A DNA stretch of 64,000 nucleotides, from NCBI RefSeq assembly GCF_018986915.1, contig NZ_CP076723.1, positions 901,501 to 965,500 on the forward strand, read 5' to 3'. Source of the stretch: Geomonas oryzisoli (lineage in GTDB: Bacteria > Desulfobacterota > Desulfuromonadia > Geobacterales > Geobacteraceae). Below are positions 2,517 through 35,400 of the stretch, one piece after another. The notes beneath the pieces were generated by a model. It did not search any database. It was not told the origin of the DNA and worked only from the letters and a program-made list of their open reading frames with translations. The position numbers and the translations under genes are program-made. Positions within the stretch are counted from its first letter, which is position 1. The number at the start of each line of letters is the position of its first letter.

Positions 2517-4489
2517 AGAAGCGAAATAAAGCGGCAAGAACGGAACAGGCGGTCGCCGCTCAGGCGGCGCCGGAGCAGGCTGAGGAGCTGAGCCTGCTGC
2601 GCGACCCCCTGGTCCATATCCTATTGGTACTGGCGGTAGGTTTCGCGGTCTACTCCAACATCATCTGGGCGCCTTTTGTGTTCGACGACCAGCCGTTTCT
2701 GGCCGGCAACCCCCTGGTCAAGGATTTCGGCTTCTTCACGGACCCGCAACGGGTGTTCGCGCTCCCGATCAACCCCGACCTCAAGAACAATTTCATGCTG
2801 CGCCCGGTCGCCTATTTCACCTTCGCGCTCAACTACGCCTTCCACGGTCTGGATGTCGGGGGGTACCATGTGGTCAACCTGTTGGTGCACCTGGTCAACG
2901 CGCTGCTCGTGTACCTGCTCGTATGGCTCACCCTGAGGACGCCGCTGTTTCTGGGGGAAGAAGGGGAAGGGGGGGAGGAGGCCGGCCAGCCCGCGCAGCG
3001 TTTCTGCTACCTCCCCCTTGTCTGCTCGCTCTTGTTCGTCTGCCATCCGCTGCAGACCCAGGCGGTCACCTACGTGATCCAGCGCTTCGTCCCGCTGGTC
3101 GCCTTTTTCTACGTCGGCACGCTGGTCCTCTACGTTGCCGCCCGGCTGGCCCGGGCCAAGGCGGCCCGGACCGGGCTGTACCTGGGGGCACTGTTAGCCT
3201 GCGTCCTGGCCATGAAGACCAAGGAGAACGCCTTCACCCTGCCGGTATTGATACTTTTCTACGAATGGGTCTTTTTCCGGGACGCGTTTACCTGTCCCCG
3301 CCTGCTCCGGCTGCTCCCCTTCGCGCTGACCATGGCCATAATCCCGGTCAAGCTGATGCAGCTCTCGGCCAGGGGGGGCACCGCCCCGGGGGGGACGGTG
3401 GCAGGCGCCGTGAACCTGGTCAACTTCAAGCAGGTCTCCTCCTGGGAATACCTGATGACCCAGTTCGGCGTCATCGCCACCTATCTGAGGCTTCTGCTGC
3501 TGCCGGTGGGGCAGAACTTCGACTACGACTACCCGCTGCAGCGGGCGTTTCTTACCCCGGCCGTCCTGCTTCCGCTGGCCCTGCTCCTGGCGCTCGCGGC
3601 GGTCGGCGCGTGGCTTTTGTTCCGGTCGCGCCGCGATCCCCGCTGCGCCCCGCTCGCCCTCGTCGGTTTCGGTGTCTGGTGGTTCTTCATCACCCTGAGC
3701 GTCGAATCGAGCGTCGTGCCGATCGACGACCTGATTTTCGAGCACCGGGCCTACCTCCCCTCGGCCGGCTTCTTCATGGCCGCGGTCACCGGATTTTTCT
3801 TCCTTTTGCCGCGGCGTGCCGGTGCGCCGATGGCGACGTCGCGACCGGCCGTCGCCGTCCTGGCCCTGCTGGTCACGGCAAGTGCGGCGGCAGCCTACGC
3901 GAGGAACACGGTATGGCAGACGCCTGTCGCCCTCTGGCGCGATGCGGTGCAAAAGAGTCCGGCGAAGCACCGTCCCCACTTCTCGCTGGGGGTGGCCCTG
4001 GCCAATACCCTGCCCCCCTGGCATACCGACGATGTCAACGTCATGCTGCAGCCCATGGATGCCGGGCAGAACGAGGTGCTCGCCGAGGTGGTGCGCGAGT
4101 TCCAGACCGCCATCAGGATCGACCCGCAGTCGGCGGCCGCCCACACCTTCCTGGGAGGGGCGCTCCTGGTTCAGAAAAGGTACCGGGAGGCGGCCGACGC
4201 GCTTGCCATCGCCGCCCGCCTGGAACCCAACGACGCCCGTCCCCACGCGTTCATGGGCCAGGTCCTTGAGGCACAGGGTGATCTGGCGGGCGCGCGCCGC
4301 AAGTACCAGCAAGCCATCGCCGTCGATCCATCCGCCCAGTACGCTCATCTTTTCCTGGCGCTGCTGAACGTCCGGGAGCGCAGGCACGCCGAGGCTCTTG
4401 CCGAATACGAGACCGCCTATGCCCTTTCCCCTCGGGCCGACCTGGAACCGAAGATCGCCCGCCTGCGGGAAGTGTCAGGGGGGCGGTGA
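2513..4489 (+). CDS. TMTC-like multi-pass membrane protein with C-terminal TPR repeats
   Basis: 658 aa. After a short charged N-terminus come about ten hydrophobic segments up to roughly residue 470. Early motifs are 'APFVFDDQPFL' and 'GGYHVVNLLVHLVNALLVYL', then 'HPLQTQAVTYVIQRF', all of which recur in TMTC/DUF1736-type proteins related to the GT-C O-mannosyltransferases. The C-terminal ~130 residues hold about three TPR units ('AAHTFLGGALLVQKRYREA', 'ARPHAFMGQVLEAQGDLAGA', 'AQYAHLFLALLNVRERRHAEA'). Family knowledge suggests transfer of a lipid-linked sugar to proteins or glycans on the outer face of the inner membrane. The ATGA overlap with the methyltransferase makes it the last gene of the sugar operon. 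Catalytic activity is inferred, not demonstrated. Confidence 0.75.
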   Translation: MKKRNKAARTEQAVAAQAAPEQAEELSLLRDPLVHILLVLAVGFAVYSNIIWAPFVFDDQPFLAGNPLVKDFGFFTDPQRVFALPINPDLKNNFMLRPVAYFTFALNYAFHGLDVGGYHVVNLLVHLVNALLVYLLVWLTLRTPLFLGEEGEGGEEAGQPAQRFCYLPLVCSLLFVCHPLQTQAVTYVIQRFVPLVAFFYVGTLVLYVAARLARAKAARTGLYLGALLACVLAMKTKENAFTLPVLILFYEWVFFRDAFTCPRLLRLLPFALTMAIIPVKLMQLSARGGTAPGGTVAGAVNLVNFKQVSSWEYLMTQFGVIATYLRLLLLPVGQNFDYDYPLQRAFLTPAVLLPLALLLALAAVGAWLLFRSRRDPRCAPLALVGFGVWWFFITLSVESSVVPIDDLIFEHRAYLPSAGFFMAAVTGFFFLLPRRAGAPMATSRPAVAVLALLVTASAAAAYARNTVWQTPVALWRDAVQKSPAKHRPHFSLGVALANTLPPWHTDDVNVMLQPMDAGQNEVLAEVVREFQTAIRIDPQSAAAHTFLGGALLVQKRYREAADALAIAARLEPNDARPHAFMGQVLEAQGDLAGARRKYQQAIAVDPSAQYAHLFLALLNVRERRHAEALAEYETAYALSPRADLEPKIARLREVSGGR

Positions 4490-4619: not shown

Positions 4620-6254
4620 TTACAGGCTCAACTCCGCGTGCCCGTTGCACAGCCTCTCGCGCTCGGCGATGACGTCGGCGTCCTCCAGGTAGTCGTCGAA
4701 GTTCATGTCGCGGTCGATGATGCCGGCCGGCGTGATCTCGATGATCCTGTTGGCCACCGTGGAGACGAACTCGTGGTCGTGGGAGGCGAACAGCACCACC
4801 TCGGTGTAGGAGATGAGCCCGTTGTTGAGGGCGGTGATCGACTCCAGGTCCAGGTGGTTGGTCGGCTCGTCCAGGATGAGCGCGTTGGCGCCGGTCAGCA
4901 TCATCCTGGAGAGCATGCAGCGCACGCGCTCACCGCCGGAGAGGACGCTGGTCTTCTTGGTTGCCTCGTCGCCGGAGAAGAGCATCCTGCCCAGGAAGCC
5001 GCGCGCGAAGCTTTCCCCTTCCGTCGGCGGGGAGTACTGCCCCAGCCACTCGATCAGGTTCAAGTCGCCCTTGAAGTAGTCGCCGTTCTCCTTGGGGAAG
5101 TAGGCGTTGGTGATGGTGACGCCCCAGCGGAAGGTCCCCTCGTCCGGTTCCAGTTCGCCTGCCAGGATCTGGAACAGGGTGGTCTTCGCCAGCGAGTTGC
5201 TCCCCACGAAGGCGATCTTGTCGCCCTTTCTCACCATCAGGTCCAGGTCCTTGAAGAGCTGCACCCCGTCCACGGTCTTGGAGAGCCCTTTCACCTCGAG
5301 GATGATGTCGCCGCAGGGGCGCTCCGGCTTGAACACCACCCACGGGTACTTGCGCGAAGAGATGGGCATGTCCTCGATGGTCAGCTTCTCGAGGAGCTTC
5401 TTCCTGGAGGTCGCCTGCTTGGCCTTGGAGGCGTTGGAGGAGAAGCGCTGGATGAACTCCTTCAGTTCGGCCGCCTTGTCCTGGACCTTGCGGGCCTCGT
5501 CCTGGCGCTGCTTCAGGTTCAGCTGGCTCGCCTGGTACCAGAAGTCGTAGTTGCCGACGTAGACCTGGATGCGGCCGAAATCGATGTCGGCTATGTGGGT
5601 GCAGACCTGGTTCAGGAAGTGACGGTCGTGGGAAACGACGATCACGGTATTGTTGAAGCGGTACAGGAAGTCCTCGAGCCATGCGATCGACTTCAGGTCC
5701 AGGTGGTTGGTCGGCTCGTCCAGAAGGAGCACGTCAGGGTTGCCGAAGAGGGCCTGCGCCAGGAGCACGCGCACCTTCTCACCCGCTTCCAGCTCCTTCA
5801 TCAGCTTGCCGCGCAGCTCTTCGGGGATGCCCAGGCCGTTCAAGAGCACCGCCGCCTCGCTCTCCGCCTCGTAGCCGTTCATCTCGGCGAACTCCGCCTC
5901 CAGTTCGGCGGAACGGATGCCGTCCTCCTCGCTGAACTCGGGCTTGGAGTAGATCGCCTCGCGCTCGGACATCACCTCGTAGAGCTTCTTGTGACCCATG
6001 ATCACCGTGTTGAAGACGGTGTGCTCGTCGTAGGCGAACTGGTCCTGCTTGAGGACCGCGATCCTCCCTTTGCCGACCGAGATCTCCCCCTTGTCGGCAT
6101 CGATCTCGCCGGAGAGGATCTTGAGGAAGGTCGACTTGCCGGCGCCGTTGGCGCCGATCAGGCCGTAGCAGTTGCCCGGGGTGAACTTTATGTTTACGTC
6201 CTTGAACAGCACCCGCTTGCCGTAGGACAGGGTGACGTTTGATGCGCTGATCAT
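4620..6254 (-). CDS. ybiT: ABC-F family ATPase, YbiT type
   Basis: 544 aa, two ABC cassettes without membrane domains, so a soluble ribosome-associated ABC-F protein rather than a transporter. Seen: Walker A 'GANGAGKST' and Walker B 'VLLLDEPTNHLDL' in cassette 1, a linker rich in charged residues including 'RFSSNASKAKQATSRKKLL', and 'LSGGERVRC' plus 'ALILDEPTNHLDLES' in cassette 2. Oddities: the first signature is LEAGE instead of LSGGE, and the second Walker A reads 'GSNSLAKTT', with Ala in place of the Gly before the catalytic Lys. Start at 6254 is fixed by AAGGAG 8 nt upstream; an ORF extension to 6287 lacks a ribosome site. Transcribed away from metF, with a hairpin in its leader. Confidence 0.92.
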   Translation of the reverse strand: MISASNVTLSYGKRVLFKDVNIKFTPGNCYGLIGANGAGKSTFLKILSGEIDADKGEISVGKGRIAVLKQDQFAYDEHTVFNTVIMGHKKLYEVMSEREAIYSKPEFSEEDGIRSAELEAEFAEMNGYEAESEAAVLLNGLGIPEELRGKLMKELEAGEKVRVLLAQALFGNPDVLLLDEPTNHLDLKSIAWLEDFLYRFNNTVIVVSHDRHFLNQVCTHIADIDFGRIQVYVGNYDFWYQASQLNLKQRQDEARKVQDKAAELKEFIQRFSSNASKAKQATSRKKLLEKLTIEDMPISSRKYPWVVFKPERPCGDIILEVKGLSKTVDGVQLFKDLDLMVRKGDKIAFVGSNSLAKTTLFQILAGELEPDEGTFRWGVTITNAYFPKENGDYFKGDLNLIEWLGQYSPPTEGESFARGFLGRMLFSGDEATKKTSVLSGGERVRCMLSRMMLTGANALILDEPTNHLDLESITALNNGLISYTEVVLFASHDHEFVSTVANRIIEITPAGIIDRDMNFDDYLEDADVIAERERLCNGHAELSL

Positions 6255-16694: not shown

Positions 16695-17609
16695 TTACGA
16701 GACGGTGGGGTCGGAGATCGGCACCAGGAGCAACGGGCACTTGCTGCGGCTGCAGATGCCGTGGGCGACGCTGCCGGTCCAGAAGGCGGCCATGCCGGTC
16801 TTGCCGTGGGTCGGGAGCACCATGAGGTCGATCTTCGCCTCCTGGGCGGCCCGCGCGATGGTTTCGGCAGGGGCGCCCCGCAACACGTGCGCCGATGCGT
16901 GGATTCCCTCCGCGACCAGCCCCTGCACCACTTCGTCCAGGTGCTCGGCCGCGTCGCGCGCCTCCAGATCCAGCATGCGCGCGGCGGTTGCGGGAAGGGT
17001 CCGCGCGGATACCTTCTCCTCCGGCGGCAGCGACTCGTAGGTGGGGATCACCGTGGTGATGTGCAGGTCGGCGTTGCAGATTCTGGCTACCGCCTTTACC
17101 ACCGGCAGCCCCTTCTCGTGTTCGGGGTCGGTGTCCAGCGGCAGCAGGATCTGGCAGCAGCAAAACGGCGGCGGTTCGCCGTGCTCGTCGGGGTGGGTGA
17201 TCAAAACCGGCAGGGCCCCCCCCGCGATCACCTTCTGGGCGATGGAGCCAAAGAGGAGGTGAAAGGCCTTGCCCCGCCCGTGGGAGCACATCACCACCAA
17301 GTCATGGCCCAGTTCGGCGGCGTGGGCGACGATGCTCTGGGAGACCAGCTCGGTCTCGGTCTCGTGCACGTGGCATTCGACCTTGGGGATGCCTTGAAAC
17401 CACGCGTGAGCTACCCCCTGCAGGTACGCCTGCGCCTCATCGGGCCCGGTCAGGTGCTTCTGCCCGTGCACCTGGCTTGGGGCGTCCTTCTCCACCACGT
17501 GGAATAGGGTCACCTGGGCGTGCAGCTTTTCGGCCATGAACCGGGCGGCGGGAAGGGCTGCCTCGGCGAGTTTGGATCCGTCCATCGGGACGAGAATGTG
17601 CTTGAACAT
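16695..17609 (-). CDS. tandem universal stress protein (two Usp domains)
   Basis: 304 aa. Domain 1 'MFKHILVPMDGSKLAEAAL...DLVVMCSHGRGKAFHLLFGSIAQKVI' and domain 2 starting 'CCCQILLPLDTDPEHEKGL...IDLMVLPTHGKTGMAAFWTGSVAHGI'. Both keep the G-x2-G-x9-G-(S/A) nucleotide-binding pattern in part ('SHGRGKAFHLLFGSIA', 'THGKTGMAAFWTGSVA'), so ATP binding is plausible. Domain 2 begins with an unusual Cys-Cys-Cys. Start at 17609 has AGGA eight bases upstream, five bases after the mntH stop; a longer frame reading back to 18707 is a shadow of mntH. Co-transcription suggests a role under metal or oxidative stress. Confidence 0.88.
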   Translation of the reverse strand: MFKHILVPMDGSKLAEAALPAARFMAEKLHAQVTLFHVVEKDAPSQVHGQKHLTGPDEAQAYLQGVAHAWFQGIPKVECHVHETETELVSQSIVAHAAELGHDLVVMCSHGRGKAFHLLFGSIAQKVIAGGALPVLITHPDEHGEPPPFCCCQILLPLDTDPEHEKGLPVVKAVARICNADLHITTVIPTYESLPPEEKVSARTLPATAARMLDLEARDAAEHLDEVVQGLVAEGIHASAHVLRGAPAETIARAAQEAKIDLMVLPTHGKTGMAAFWTGSVAHGICSRSKCPLLLVPISDPTVS

Positions 17610-17614
17610 GACGA

Positions 17615-18910
17615 TCATCCTGGGAAAAAGGTTGCGTAGAGCAGGTAGATGTTGAGGGCGACGATGAGCCCTGCCGCCACTGCGGCAAAGGCCGTGGTCG
17701 CCGGTTTGTTGACCAGGTCTCCCATAAGGTCGCTGCGGCGGGTGAAGAGCACCAGTGGGATGATGGCGAAGGGGAGCCCGAAGGAAAGCACCACCTGGCT
17801 GATGACCAGGGTGCGGGTCGGGTCGTATCCCATGGCGATGACGAACAGCGACGGCGCCATGGTGACGAGACGCCTGATCCAGAGCGGGATGTGGCGCTGG
17901 ATGAAGCCCTGCATGATCACCTGCCCGGCGCTGGTGCCGACGCTGCTGGAGGAGAGGCCAGAGAAGAGCAGGGAGACGCCGAAGATGAACTTCGCCGCCG
18001 AACCCAGAAGCGGCTCCAGGGTCCGGTACGCCTCCTCGATGGTGGCTACCGAGGTCTTGCCGGTGGCGTAGAAGGTGGCGGCCGCCATGATGAGCATGGA
18101 CATGTTCACGAAGCTCGCGATCCCCATGGCGATCACCACGTCCATGATCTCGTAGCGGAACAGGGTGCGCAGCTTTTTCCTGTCTTTGACCACGATCCTC
18201 CCCTGCATGAGCGAGGAGTGCAGGAAGATGGCGTGCGGCATGACCGTGGCGCCGATGATGCCGGTGGCCAGGAGGACGCTTTCGCTCCCCGCAAACCTCG
18301 GTCGCACCACGTGCGCGGCGATCTGGCCCCAGTCGGGGCTCGCGATGAAGATCTCGGCCACGTAGCACAGGGCGATGACGGCGACCATGGCGGAGATGAC
18401 GGCCTCCAGCGGCCTGAAGCCGAAGCGCTCCATGCCGAGGATGGCGAAGGTGGCCAGGGCGGTGAGCAGGGCGCCGGCCAGAAGCGGGATGCCGAACAGG
18501 AGCTGGAATCCGAGGGCCGCGCCCATGAACTCCGCCAGGTCGGTGGCTATGGCCACCGCCTCCATGATGACCCACATGGCGAGCGACACCGGCCTTGGGA
18601 ACTGGTTGCGGCAGTGCTCGGCGAGGTTTTGGCCGGTGGCGAGCCCCAACTTGGCCGATAGGGTCTGGATCAGCATGGCGATCAGGTTGCTGGAGATGAT
18701 CACCCAAAGGAGCAGGTAGCCGAACTGCGCCCCCCCCTGGATGTTGGTGGCGAAGTTGCCGGGATCGACGTAGGCGACGCTGGCGATGAAGGCGGGGCCG
18801 AGGAAGGGGAAGACGCGGGCGAGTCGTGATTGCTTGGTTTCGCGCGACAGGGCCTCCAGGGCGGACTGGACGGTCCTCGAGTCAAGGTTGCTGGTGCTGT
18901 TTTTGGGCAA
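17615..18910 (-). CDS. mntH: NRAMP-family Mn2+/Fe2+ transporter
   Basis: About 431 aa, eleven hydrophobic segments. The two NRAMP metal-site motifs are intact: 'VDPGNFATN' (TM1; Asp and Asn ligands) and 'TVMPHAIFLHS' (TM6; Met and His). Imports Mn2+ or Fe2+ with protons across the inner membrane. I favour a TTG start at 18910 with GAGG five bases upstream; a GTG at 18914-18916 overlaps that ribosome site. First gene of a two-gene unit with the Usp gene. A minus-strand TATACT -10-like hexamer (19071-19076) and a Fur-like box at 19110-19128 lie upstream, so metal control is plausible. Confidence 0.92.
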   Translation of the reverse strand: MPKNSTSNLDSRTVQSALEALSRETKQSRLARVFPFLGPAFIASVAYVDPGNFATNIQGGAQFGYLLLWVIISSNLIAMLIQTLSAKLGLATGQNLAEHCRNQFPRPVSLAMWVIMEAVAIATDLAEFMGAALGFQLLFGIPLLAGALLTALATFAILGMERFGFRPLEAVISAMVAVIALCYVAEIFIASPDWGQIAAHVVRPRFAGSESVLLATGIIGATVMPHAIFLHSSLMQGRIVVKDRKKLRTLFRYEIMDVVIAMGIASFVNMSMLIMAAATFYATGKTSVATIEEAYRTLEPLLGSAAKFIFGVSLLFSGLSSSSVGTSAGQVIMQGFIQRHIPLWIRRLVTMAPSLFVIAMGYDPTRTLVISQVVLSFGLPFAIIPLVLFTRRSDLMGDLVNKPATTAFAAVAAGLIVALNIYLLYATFFPG

Positions 18911-19109
18911 TGTCACCTCGGCGGCTGGTTCGTGGGCGAAAGGTCAGACAATTCTAGCTGCGATAGCATCAAGGATCAACTGCCATGCTCTGAAAAAGAT
19001 GCTTAGCCGTCGTTGTCTGCGAAATGAGTTGGCAGCGGACCTGCGGGCATGGTAAAAGCGACGGTGAAGTAGTATAGCCGAGGCGATCGTCGTGGTCGCA
19101 GCAAAATTG

Positions 19110-31324: not shown

Positions 31325-32644
31325 TTGGACACCGTCTTTGTCGAACTGCTGGTCATCGCCGTCCTCATTTTGTTGAACGGATTTTTCTCCTGCGCCGAAT
31401 TCGCCATCATCTCCATTCGTAAAAGCAGGGTCGCGCAACTGGTCGCCCTGGGCAACCAGCGGGCCGCGCTGGTGGAGTCGCTGCAAAGGGACCCGCACCG
31501 TCTGCTCGCCATCGTGCAGATCGGGGTCACGGTGGTCGGCTCGACCGCGTCCGCAGTGGGCGGCGTGATCGCCGTCGACTACATCCGTCCCGTGCTGCAG
31601 GTGTCCCCGCTCGCCATGGTGCGAAACGCCGCCGAACCGCTGGCCATCGGCATCGTGGTCAGCGCCATCTCGTACCTGCAGCTCATCCTGGGCGAACTGG
31701 TGCCCAAGACCATCGGGCTGCAGTACGCCGAACCGGTTGCGCTGCGGGTGGTGAACACCATCACCTCGCTGGCGCGGGTCGCCTCGGTGCTCGTCTCCGT
31801 GCTCAGCTTCTCCACCAGGGCGACGCTGGCCCTGTTCGGCCTGAAAGGGGAGGGGAAGGCATTCATGACCCGCGAGGAGGTGCAGCACATCGTCGCCGAG
31901 GGGCACGAAAGCGGCATCTTCAGCGAGACCGAACACACCTTCATCGACAACCTCTTCGACTTCACCCACACCGCGGTGCGCGAGGTGATGGTGCCGCGCA
32001 CCCGCGTGGTCGCCTTCGACCTCAATCTCTCCAACGAGGAGATCCTGAACGGGGTGCTGGACAACATGTACTCCCGCTACCCGGTCTACCTGGGAAGCAT
32101 CGAGGAAACCGTCGGGTTCATCCACGGCAAGGACCTTCTGGGGCGCATGGTGCGCGAGCCCCACTTCGACATCCGTTCCATCGTGCGGCCGCCGGTCTTC
32201 GTTCCCGAAGGGAAGAAGGTGAGCGAGCTGCTGAAGGAGATGCAGAAGACCAGGGTGCACATGGCTTTCGTGGTGGACGAGTACGGCAGCATCAGCGGCA
32301 TCGTGACCACCGAGGACCTGCTCGAGGAACTGGTCGGCGAGATAGAGGACGAGCATGACGTGGGGGAACCGAGCCGGGTGCAGGTGCTGGCGGACGGGAG
32401 CTTCCTGGTCGACGCCCTCATCTCCGTCTCGGATCTCGAGGACCTGCTGGAGCTCGACCTGGGCGAGGATCTTCCTTACGACACGCTGGCGGGACTGATC
32501 CTGAACAGGATCGGGCGTTTTCCCGAGCAGGGAGAGACGGTGGAGCTGGACGAGTACCTGCTCACCTGCGAGGAGGTGACCCGCACCGGCATCAGCCAGG
32601 TACGGATCGTCAGGAAGGAGCAGGATCAAGAAACGAAGGATTAA
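31325..32644 (+). CDS. CNNM/CorC-family (hemolysin-like) membrane protein
   Basis: 439 aa, TTG start with CGGAGGG upstream. DUF21 membrane domain with about four segments ('LLVIAVLILLNGFFSCAEFAIISIRKSRV', 'LLAIVQIGVTVVGSTASAVGG', 'ISYLQLILGELVPKTIGLQ'), a CBS pair ('DFTHTAVREVMVPRTRVVAFD', 'RVHMAFVVDEYGSISGIVTTEDLLEELVGEI') and a C-terminal CorC_HlyC domain ('ALISVSDLEDLLELDLGEDLPYDTLAGLIL'). This family exports Mg2+ or Co2+, or buffers their level. Despite the name, no evidence of haemolysis. Confidence 0.92.
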   Translation: MDTVFVELLVIAVLILLNGFFSCAEFAIISIRKSRVAQLVALGNQRAALVESLQRDPHRLLAIVQIGVTVVGSTASAVGGVIAVDYIRPVLQVSPLAMVRNAAEPLAIGIVVSAISYLQLILGELVPKTIGLQYAEPVALRVVNTITSLARVASVLVSVLSFSTRATLALFGLKGEGKAFMTREEVQHIVAEGHESGIFSETEHTFIDNLFDFTHTAVREVMVPRTRVVAFDLNLSNEEILNGVLDNMYSRYPVYLGSIEETVGFIHGKDLLGRMVREPHFDIRSIVRPPVFVPEGKKVSELLKEMQKTRVHMAFVVDEYGSISGIVTTEDLLEELVGEIEDEHDVGEPSRVQVLADGSFLVDALISVSDLEDLLELDLGEDLPYDTLAGLILNRIGRFPEQGETVELDEYLLTCEEVTRTGISQVRIVRKEQDQETKD

Positions 32645-32702: not shown

Positions 32703-33626
32703 CTACCCCCTGCCTTTCTTCCCCCCGAGGAAGATCGAGGACAGCACCGAAATGGTCAGGGCACCCACGATGACGCCCAGGGAGAGCTGCAGCGGGATCT
32801 CGACCAGGTCCGCCAGGAGCATCTTCGCCCCGACAAAGGCGAGGATCACGGAAACGCCGAGCTTCAGGTGGACGAACATCTCCATGACGTGGGCCAGCAG
32901 GTAGTACAGCGAGCGCAGCCCCATGATGGCGAAGATGTTGGAGCTGTACACGATGAACGGGTCGTGGGTGACCGCAAGTACCGCGGGGATGGAATCGACC
33001 GCGAAGATCACGTCGCTCGATTCGACGACGAGCAGGGTCAGAAAGAGGGGGGTCGCGGCCCAGATGCCGCACCTCTTGATGAAGAAGTGATCGCCGCGCG
33101 CCCTCCTGGTGATGGGGATGAAACGCCGGGCCAGCCGCACCAGCGGGTTGTGCTCCGGGTGCACCTCGTCATCCCCGCCGAAGGCCATCTTGAAACCGGT
33201 GTAGATCAGCACCGCCCCGAACACGTAGACCATCCAGTGGAAACGCTCGATCAGCTCGATCCCCACCACGATGAAGATGCCGCGCATCACCAGGGCACCG
33301 ATGATCCCCCACTTCAGGATCTTGGGCTGGTGCGCCCGGGCGACCTTGAAGTACGAGAAGATCATGATGAAGACGAAAAGGTTGTCGACGGACAGCGACT
33401 CTTCGATGATGTAACCGGTAAGGAATTCCAGCGCCTTGGCCGGCCCCAGCACGTACCAGACGCCGACGTTGAACGCCATGGCGAGACCGACCCAGACCAC
33501 GGTCCAGGCCAGCGCCTCGCGGAACTTTATCTCGTGGCTCTTCCTGTTGAACACGAAGAGGTCCAGGATGAACATCACCGTGATGATCCCCGCGAAGGCG
33601 ATCCACATCATCTCTCTGTTGGTCAA
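32703..33626 (-). CDS. TerC-family membrane protein (Alx-like, manganese export)
   Basis: 307 aa, TTG start preceded by GGAGGGAG. About nine membrane segments; TerC signatures 'FLTGYIIEESLSVDNLFVFIMIF' and 'VVESSDVIFAVDSIPAVLAVT' with the paired acidic residues thought to bind metal. Closest to E. coli Alx by order and length (~320). TerC/Alx proteins export Mn2+ or load exported enzymes with it. Second gene after htpX, 12 bp apart, and both lie downstream of a yybP-ykoY (Mn2+) riboswitch, which strongly supports a manganese role. Confidence 0.93.
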   Translation of the reverse strand: MTNREMMWIAFAGIITVMFILDLFVFNRKSHEIKFREALAWTVVWVGLAMAFNVGVWYVLGPAKALEFLTGYIIEESLSVDNLFVFIMIFSYFKVARAHQPKILKWGIIGALVMRGIFIVVGIELIERFHWMVYVFGAVLIYTGFKMAFGGDDEVHPEHNPLVRLARRFIPITRRARGDHFFIKRCGIWAATPLFLTLLVVESSDVIFAVDSIPAVLAVTHDPFIVYSSNIFAIMGLRSLYYLLAHVMEMFVHLKLGVSVILAFVGAKMLLADLVEIPLQLSLGVIVGALTISVLSSIFLGGKKGRG

Positions 33627-33638
33627 AACTCCCTCCGG

Positions 33639-34478
33639 TTAATGCCCCATCTGCTCCAGCCGGGCGATACGCTCCTCCATGGGGGGGTGCGTGGAAAAAA
33701 GTCTCATCAGCATCCCGGCGGTGAGCGGGTTCACGATGAACATGTGCGCCGTTGCCGGCCTCGCCTCGGACATCGGCAGCGCCCGGGAGGCCTGGTCCAG
33801 CTTCCTCAGCGCGTTGGCGAGGGAGAGCGGCTTGCCGCACAGCCTGGCACCGCTTTCGTCGGCCAGGTACTCGCGGCTGCGGGAGACGGCGAGCTGGATC
33901 AGCATGGCGGCGATCGGCGCTATGATGGCGAGTGCCAGCCCACCCCAGCCGCCCCCCTCCTCGTCGTCGCTGCGGCCGCCGAAGATGGCCGCCCACTGCA
34001 CCATGTTCGCCAGCATGGAAATCGCGCCGGCGATGGTGGCGGCGATGGTGGAAATCAGGATGTCGCGGTTGGCGACGTGGCTTAGCTCGTGTGCCATGAC
34101 CCCCTCCATCTCCTCGGGGGTGAGAATGCGCAGGATCCCCTCGGTCGCGGCGACCGCGGCATGTTCGGGGTTTCTGCCGGTGGCGAAGGCGTTGGGGCTC
34201 TCCGAGGGGATGATGTAGACCCGGGGCATCGGGAGCCCTCCCTGGACCGCGAGCCTTCTGATCATGCCGTAGAAGGCGGGGTTCTCCGCCTCGGTGATCT
34301 CCTGCGCCCCGTACATGCGCAGCACGATCTTGTCGGAGAACCAGTAGGAGAAGAGGTTCATGGCGCAGGCCATGAGGAAGGCGAAGTACATGCCGCCCCT
34401 GCCGCCGATGGCGCTCCCCAGGGCCACCATGATCAGCGTAAGCGTGGTGAGCAGGACCGCTGTCTTGAATCTGTTCAT
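33639..34478 (-). CDS. htpX: HtpX membrane zinc metalloprotease
   Basis: 279 aa. M48 peptidase of the inner membrane: HExxH at His130-His134 ('[14 protein letters not shown]'), third zinc ligand Glu in '[13 protein letters not shown]', two N-terminal and two central hydrophobic segments ('[20 protein letters not shown]', '[19 protein letters not shown]'), and '[14 protein letters not shown]'. It degrades misfolded membrane proteins. Start at 34478 is set by AAGGAGGTAA; upstream in-frame codons run into the riboswitch and are not coding. First gene after the manganese riboswitch, an unusual member of that regulon. Confidence 0.95.
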
Positions 34479-34508
34479 GACGTTACCTCCTTGCCGTGTC
34501 GCATGGTC

Positions 34509-34556
34509 AAATAAAAAGACCTTTACCCAGGCAATTTTGCACTGGATAAAGGTCTT
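34509..34556 (-). terminator. riboswitch expression platform (intrinsic terminator)
   Basis: On the minus strand AAGACCTTTATCCAG / CTGGGTAAAGGTCTT with 11-nt loop and then TTTATTT. Its left arm includes the 3' strand of the aptamer's closing helix (GACCTTT), so aptamer and terminator exclude each other: Mn2+ binding should free the gene for transcription. Confidence 0.85.
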
Positions 34557-34656
34557 GCCTGCTCTGACAGGATTGTCATGCCCCATGCCCGGGCCGTGGC
34601 GGCCGTCTTGACGAACACGGGTCGGTTGCCGTGTCAACCGATAGCTACTCCCCTTT
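34548..34656 (-). ncRNA. yybP-ykoY manganese riboswitch aptamer
   Basis: The RNA opens with AAAGGGGAGTAGC and closes with CAGGCAAGACCTTT, the conserved 5' and 3' pieces of the yybP-ykoY class (as before E. coli alx and B. subtilis yybP). The ends pair as P1 (AAAGG/CCTTT). Internal hairpins are CGGTTG/CAACCG and GC-rich arms, and CCTGTCAGAGCAGG precedes the 3' core, as in other members. Downstream genes are htpX and a TerC-family gene; TerC genes are classical targets. Confidence 0.88.
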
Positions 34657-34666
34657 ACCAAGATGA

Positions 34667-34695
34667 AATATAGGTAACGGAAGCACGGGTGTCAA
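34667..34695 (-). promoter_or_regulatory. sigma-70 promoter of the riboswitch-htpX-terC unit
   Basis: Minus strand TTGACA, 17 bp, TATATT, a near-consensus promoter; transcription should begin about 34660, right at the aptamer's 5' end. The string CGGTTGACAC recurs inside the aptamer. Confidence 0.85.
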
Positions 34696-34732: not shown

Positions 34733-35308
34733 CTACCCGGCGATGCTCTCGGTGAGCAGGATGGCGTCGGCCAGCTGCCGCATCGATATCCTGCGGTCCA
34801 TGGCAAGCCGCTGCATCCGGCGGAAGGCCTCGGCCTCGGACAGCTTGTCGCGCTCCATGAGCCGCCCCTTGGCCTTCTCGATCACCTTTCTGCTTTCGAT
34901 GCTCTCCTTCAGGGAACAGACCTCTTCCTTGAGCCGCTCCACCCGGCGCGCCGCGGCGATGGAAAGGACCAGCGCTGCGACCAGTTCCTCTTCCCGGACC
35001 GGCTTGGCCAGGATGGTGGATACCGCCGACTCTCCCCAGGTCTGCACATCCTCCAAGTCGCAGCTTTCCGCGATCACCACGATCGGGAGGCTGAGCTTGT
35101 CCCAGAGCCTCTTGACCGCGCCGACGATCTCCTGGTCGCCGGCGCTGAATTCGACGACGGCCACCTCCGGATGGTTGGCCAGGGCCTCGCTCAACAGCTC
35201 CCCCGAACTCCCGGACGCTATTATTTCAGCAAAACCCCGCTCCCTCAGCCTGTTTTTTAGGCTCTCCAGGAGATCCTCGTCGCGAATGTACAGGACCGCT
35301 TTTCCCAT
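34733..35308 (-). CDS. ANTAR-domain regulator with degenerate receiver
   Basis: 191 aa from the ATG at 35308 (AAAGGGGGTGA upstream). N-terminal ~120 residues are receiver-like, but the phospho-acceptor position reads Glu ('VAVVEFSAGDQEI'), the Thr/Ser position is Ala ('IVVIAES'), and only the Lys ('LAKPVREEEL') remains, so a pseudo-receiver. A coiled coil follows ('RVERLKEEVCSLKESIESRK'), then an ANTAR domain ('VIEKAKGRLMERDKLSEAEAFRRMQRLAMDRRISMRQLADAIL'). ANTAR proteins bind paired hairpins in RNA leaders and prevent termination. Divergent from a hybrid histidine kinase whose leader carries a terminator. Confidence 0.88.
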   Translation of the reverse strand: MGKAVLYIRDEDLLESLKNRLRERGFAEIIASGSSGELLSEALANHPEVAVVEFSAGDQEIVGAVKRLWDKLSLPIVVIAESCDLEDVQTWGESAVSTILAKPVREEELVAALVLSIAAARRVERLKEEVCSLKESIESRKVIEKAKGRLMERDKLSEAEAFRRMQRLAMDRRISMRQLADAILLTESIAG

Positions 35309-35400
35309 GAATTTCACCCCCTTTACGACGATTGGAACTGCCCCGGACGGACAGGTTACCTGGTAAAAAGCACAGAGCGTTCCAAAAAACGGTGCCGTCG

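Follow-up and report, generated by a model that had tools for sequence, protein, structure and literature searches.

The membrane protease HtpX is widespread and its cellular task is poorly defined. In E. coli it is controlled by the CpxRA envelope-stress system and acts in membrane quality control. The first gene of the locus described here encodes a member of the same protease family, for which quality control is likewise considered; however, the E. coli gene answers to an envelope-stress two-component system and not to Mn. The yybP-ykoY class of riboswitches (Rfam RF00080) is already known, as is the control that it exerts over terC; it is found, for instance, ahead of E. coli mntP and alx. 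The leader of the present locus resembles both in its core motifs, in the layout of P1 and in a terminator overlapping P1, and a single covariance model finds all three. It differs in lying below the Rfam cut-off, in a P4 region shorter than that of alx, and in preceding a membrane protease gene, whereas a transporter follows at mntP and alx.

A link between Mn and membrane proteolysis is suggested by work on B. subtilis, according to the parts of two accounts that were available. Proteins co-immunoprecipitating with the TerC-family protein MeeF include HtpX, FtsH, SecY and SecDF (Table 1 of PMC10550928), FtsH becomes essential when MeeF and MeeY are both missing, and a Mn riboswitch controls meeY (PMC10550928). 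The likeness to the present locus lies in the connection of a TerC protein with HtpX and FtsH and in the riboswitch of meeY; however, the link there consists of co-immunoprecipitation and FtsH genetics, whereas the present genes are linked by sharing a Mn-riboswitch leader, and the available part of that account makes no mention of a htpX-TerC operon (PMC10550928). The rhomboid YqgP, together with FtsH, removes MgtE at high Mn and low Mg, so that membrane proteolysis answers Mn excess in that system also (PMC7231995). YqgP is a metal-binding rhomboid, whereas the present system has an M48 protease and control at the RNA level.

UPF0016 was under a yybP-ykoY riboswitch in 328 of 333 screened strains, according to the available part of a study which cites a 2015 yybP-ykoY discovery paper among its sources (PMC7380456). 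PMC3766115 states that its analysis did not extend to the delta-proteobacterial lineage. Among the open papers found by literature search, none mentions htpX behind yybP-ykoY in its title, abstract opening or the passages covered; the tables of the 2015 discovery papers may list htpX.

Leader of the htpX-terC locus

The locus was identified in a window of 64 kb (the whole stretch of DNA analysed), in which leader, htpX and terC are all on the minus strand (Table 1). A sequence-only reading had proposed a near-consensus promoter, htpX as first gene and terC as second, and a closing helix competing with a terminator. All of these were recovered, the last because CCUUUAUC is common to the P1 3' strand and the 5' half of the terminator, which lies exactly where it had been placed. 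Two promoter-like sites occurred in the 3 kb scanned, compared with 0.5 expected from shuffles. The leader is ~180 nt long, counted from a putative start site, and its fold has z = -5.9 against shuffles. The arrangement of the locus exceeds chance. The leader terminator is absent from the list of a simple terminator scan, which has different loop and stem limits; between htpX and terC the same scan gave no terminator-like site on the minus strand. The terC start codon is TTG, 12 nt past htpX, and from this spacing the two genes are very probably carried on one transcript. An ANTAR-domain response regulator gene on the same strand ends ~40 nt upstream of the promoter, making read-through into the leader possible. 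On the other side, terC converges with a gene for a CNNM/CorC-type protein with CBS domains, a family linked to the transport of Mg.

Table 1. Positions of the locus features (window numbering) and composition of related switch loci
Feature	Position	Strand	Basis or remark
Predicted promoter	34667..34695	minus	TTGACA (from 34695), 17-nt spacer, TATATT (to 34667); 11/12 consensus letters
yybP-ykoY aptamer	34540..34665	minus	Covariance model R2 (scores in text)
P1 5' strand, GGUAAAGG	34659-34652	minus	Pairs with CCUUUAUC
P1 3' strand, CCUUUAUC	34552-34545	minus	Pairs with GGUAAAGG
Intrinsic terminator	34509..34556	minus	Read from sequence; hairpin 34556-34513, -25.1 kcal/mol; T-rich tail to 34509
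htpX, M48 membrane metalloprotease, 279 aa	33639..34478	minus	PF01435 (Peptidase_M48), 113 bits; HExxH
terC, TerC-family membrane protein, 307 aa	32703..33626	minus	PF03741 (TerC), 167 bits
ANTAR-domain response regulator gene	34733-35317	minus
CNNM/CorC-type protein with CBS domains	31325-32644	plus
Nramp (mntH-like) gene	17615-18916	minus	Pfam search of window ORFs
Region of Nramp gene and universal-stress-protein domains	16695-18916	minus
L001			Window's genome; switch, second htpX, then short TerC
L010	C1:1339604-1339722	minus	Window's genome; switch ahead of ribbon-helix-helix and Tim44-like genes
L420		same strand	switch-TerC-CBS-UPF0182-htpX
L421		same strand	switch-TerC-UPF0182-htpX
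L422		same strand	Run as in L420 plus one unassigned stretch
L423		same strand	switch-TerC-Tim44-GDT1-unassigned-TerC-htpX
L128 (MnB_6 Mn-Nitrospirae)			htpX and next P-type ATPase, own switch each
L180 (Thermodesulfovibrionia)			switch-htpX-GDT1-DsbA-like-zinc ribbon-P-type ATPase; DsbA-like named by eye

With Rfam release 15, RF00080 (model length 177 positions) gave no match in the window at the gathering score, and the window leader scored 20.3 bits in a permissive search of a 361-base stretch, where the cut-off is 45. When RF00080 alone was run on the window's genome, one other place was matched, at 26 bits and likewise under the cut-off, and no match up to E 0.01 (over all 4227 families) was obtained for L001, L010, L128, L148 and L180, five loci which do carry the element. 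The cut-off is strict, as among 14 control genomes matches were found in five and passed it in two. Since such leaders are missed at this cut-off, many Mn riboswitches of Geobacterales (the window's order) and Nitrospirota would escape automatic annotation.

Two covariance models were therefore built: R1 from 26 leaders of the window's order, the window itself included, and R2 from 81 aptamers from across bacteria, none from the window's genome but five from Geobacterales, two of which (L148 and L165) precede orthologous htpX. R1 gave 87.3 bits (E 6.6e-21) for the window leader, a member of its training set, and R2 gave 63.8 bits (E 6.9e-18), with near relatives in the training set. The sole other R2 match in the window up to E 1 had 10.8 bits. 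R2 also recognises the leaders of two E. coli genes outside its training set, alx at 49.8 bits and mntP at 43.2 bits. The covariance-model search suggested by the sequence-only reading was thus negative by the Rfam cut-off alone, an outcome that the reading itself had named as a refutation, and positive with R1 and R2, and its assignment of the aptamer to yybP-ykoY is borne out by the model that recognises alx and mntP.

The motifs GGGGAGUAGC, CGUCA and GCAAGACCUUU are present in the aptamer of the window leader. The L1 motif GGGGAGUAGC, the L3 motif CGUCA and GCAAGACC before the P1 3' strand lie at 34651-34545; the same letters occur in E. coli mntP and, with small changes, in alx. In this riboswitch class these letters hold the Mn2+ site. 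Across the 26 leaders of the order, GGGGAGUAG, CGUCA and CAAGACC are invariant. In the R1 alignment both sides had changed in 17 of 31 pairs (P1, P2-P4) and 92.8% of cells were paired, compared with 45-47% after a one-column slide; the structure was drawn from this same alignment, which favours it in such a comparison. Membership of the yybP-ykoY class is well supported, with Mn2+ as predicted ligand.

On its own the aptamer adopts a fold with closed P1 (-48.1 kcal/mol), while for the full leader the terminator fold has -71.7 compared with -54.5 when P1 is forced. These energies fit a co-transcriptional ON switch, in which the terminator would win without ligand and P1 would be held with it. 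Of 63 leaders inspected in the order, 55 were testable, the exact motif being missing from the stretch tested in the other 8; in 50 of these 55 a perfect AAAGGUCUU with a T-rich tail lies past P1 and the terminator overlaps P1, and the remaining five differ by one letter each in AAAGGUCUU. From known members of this RNA family, both Mn2+ as ligand and the ON direction are highly probable. At low Mn2+ the nascent leader would form the terminator and transcription would stop ahead of htpX, whereas at high Mn2+ the ligand would hold P1 closed, the terminator would not form and htpX and terC would be made together. TerC would then lower cytosolic Mn or pass Mn to proteins crossing the membrane, and HtpX would clear membrane proteins or Sec clients failing from wrong or missing metal. 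Activity in Mn export or as a metal chaperone is known from other members of the TerC family (PMC10550928, PMC13274385). That a Mn2+-ON transcriptional riboswitch governs the htpX-terC operon, with joint induction of exporter and quality-control protease, is reasonably likely. In V. parahaemolyticus mneA and terC behind yybP-ykoY are induced by Mn, and RNA-seq coverage at the leader is without a drop, as reported in the available part of PMC13274385; in some species, therefore, control may involve more than termination.

Gene company and distribution of the switch

The window's order was surveyed in 141 genomes, of which 117 had R1 matches and 135 had HtpX. Among the best 150 matches of each kind, an R1 match was located 67-111 nt upstream on the same strand for 68 htpX places, and no opposite-strand R1 match was listed at any of the 150; conversely, 68 of the 150 listed R1 matches directly precede a listed htpX, a figure free of selection. 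Upstream DNA was examined for 80 of the other 82 htpX and revealed an element within 450 nt in 46, giving 114 of 148 htpX with an element within that distance (the best 150 of the order, two left out). Among the 34 htpX with no element in that range, 28 share only 67-71% identity with the window protein, and four of the remaining six (L420-L423) lie 3.6-6.5 kb past a same-strand switch, behind other switch-linked genes. L424 is a second htpX copy near a switch-linked one, and at L425 htpX-terC is kept with no switch found there.

Outside the order the pairing is sparser. In a phylum sample of 297 genomes, 8 of them shown as the window's order, R2 matched in 43 and HtpX was present in 216; htpX was next in 15 of 53 R2 places (13 genomes), among the best 150 htpX matches listed. 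Seven of these 13 genomes are outside the order (G511, G608, G408, G480, G482, G581 and G665). In 245 genomes of Nitrospirota, the phylum of L128, R2 matched in 40 and HtpX was present in 139, with htpX next, 51-108 nt on, in 17 of 51 R2 places (17 genomes). For both sets the next-gene counts draw htpX from genomes with a switch match; set against the HtpX genomes, 17 of 139 and 13 of 216, they indicate that most htpX outside the order are without a switch. The survey of htpX behind the riboswitch that the sequence-only reading had called for thus shows the pairing, described there as unusual, to be common within the order. Being usual in the order and recurrent in Nitrospirota, the pairing looks selected. 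What the sequences themselves show is the element with its platform, and a conserved order of genes.

A wider link across bacteria found no support. A pattern scan of species genomes gave at least 120 loci with 123 places, 113 of which had 700 nt or more of downstream DNA; among the matches listed, 5 of the 123 places have htpX as first recognised gene (2 Geobacterales, 3 Nitrospirota). The first gene was otherwise GDT1 (21), TerC (20, some weak), P-type ATPase (13) or zinc ribbon (2), while 54 of the places listed matched none of the query families and 8 had too little DNA.

Gene company was examined for 63 switches, 61 of them in 60 regions picked from the 150 listed R1 matches for family cover and good assembly rather than at random, plus the window and L001. 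Among the families, CBS and P-type ATPase were named by eye. In this set the first recognised gene was htpX in 36 (29 full and seven pieces), TerC in 12, ribbon-helix-helix in 9, Tim44-like in 3, and UPF0182, CBS and another gene in 1 each. The pieces are at L053, L055, L068, L069 (contig end), L072, L077 and L083; at L068, L072, L077 and L083 htpX remnants lie between the switch and the next genes, the protease decaying while the switch stays. At L054 a single htpX is preceded by two elements ~1 kb apart, on the minus strand at 4041-4158 and 5022-5139. Of the 36 htpX-first places, 27 have a same-strand TerC no more than 3.6 kb on, a number that rises to 29 when GDT1 and P-type ATPases are counted as well. 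The window's genome has three switches, namely this leader, L001 and L010, and the ribbon-helix-helix and Tim44-like pair seen at L010 recurs behind switches across the order. Switch runs repeatedly include small zinc-ribbon proteins and the large membrane protein UPF0182 (L079, L080, L090, L102, L155 and L420-L422), which makes them candidate manganese genes.

The history of the protein was followed in a tree of 89 HtpX proteins, a non-random sample from which three identical proteins were dropped, with 50 counted as switch-linked (11 rows negative in the motif test were so scored on model or coordinate evidence). HExxH is kept in all 89 and the SRE..AD pattern in 83. The switch label is clustered: 27 of 28 rows are switch-linked in the clade with the window's order and 18 of 21 in a mainly Nitrospirota clade, where some proteins of the window's phylum are also found, suggesting transfer. 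Accounting for the label takes 9 changes, of which well-supported branches force at least 7, and this speaks against one inherited locus as sole cause. The tree fits a single origin with losses and repeated gain alike.

The mntH gene mentioned in the sequence-only reading does exist in the window as a Nramp gene, with universal-stress-protein domains just downstream. Pfam searches of other window ORFs gave no Mn importer. The joint tuning of import and export proposed for the Nramp gene was abandoned as unsupported, since some 16 kb separate this gene from the leader and R2, run over the window, gave no element ahead of it.

Role of HtpX behind the switch

The chances are about even that the task of HtpX is membrane quality control under Mn stress. 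Such control, acting on mis-metalated or stalled membrane and Sec-dependent proteins, is favoured over turnover of a single transporter with moderate confidence. A narrower version is tentatively put forward: HtpX may be a dedicated Mn-stress protease working at the Sec translocon alongside an exporter of the TerC, GDT1 or P-type ATPase kind, where it would clear mis-metalated or stalled proteins as part of a Mn2+-dosed module in two phyla.

A regulatory role in metal transport, in which HtpX would degrade a Mn-permeable importer (Nramp, MgtE or CorA, say) under Mn excess, is rather unlikely. The change of exporter family beside htpX fits a protease acting on import, and the removal of MgtE by YqgP with FtsH provides a precedent, as far as the available part of that account goes (PMC7231995). 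However, YqgP is an unrelated protease and itself binds Mn, any importer as HtpX substrate is hypothetical, and the Nramp gene of the window has no link to the switch.

That htpX is a passenger, co-transcribed by accident of gene order with an exporter which the switch serves, is very unlikely. The presence of TerC downstream at most htpX-first places and the many htpX elsewhere without a switch would agree with it. However, htpX stands next to the switch in 114 of 148 cases, htpX and the P-type ATPase of L128 have a switch each, the exporter family varies, and even the distant htpX of L420-L423 remain within a run of switch-linked genes; linkage to the switch in all these lines argues against a passenger. 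It is equally improbable that the aptamer is a variant sensing Fe, Co, Ni or Zn instead of Mn2+, or that HtpX is made because Mn2+ is its cofactor: yybP variants with other ligands are expected (PMC7266159, available part), and HtpX, with HExxH in all 89 proteins of the tree, belongs to a metalloprotease family, but the core letters agree with E. coli alx and mntP and the downstream exporter families are tied to Mn in the available parts of PMC13274385 and PMC7380456.

In this group of soil and sediment bacteria, the position of the switch ahead of htpX and usually of an exporter suggests that cells may make both together in Mn excess. If Mn2+ excess induces HtpX in whole bacterial groups, a single, simple condition would suffice for a search for its substrates. 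Independent support would also come from the gene order for the idea, put forward for Bacillus, of a partnership between TerC proteins and membrane proteases at the secretion machinery. The UPF0182, Tim44-like, ribbon-helix-helix and zinc-ribbon genes behind the element would be candidate manganese genes and, if the reading is true, the riboswitch class would extend from transport to proteolysis.
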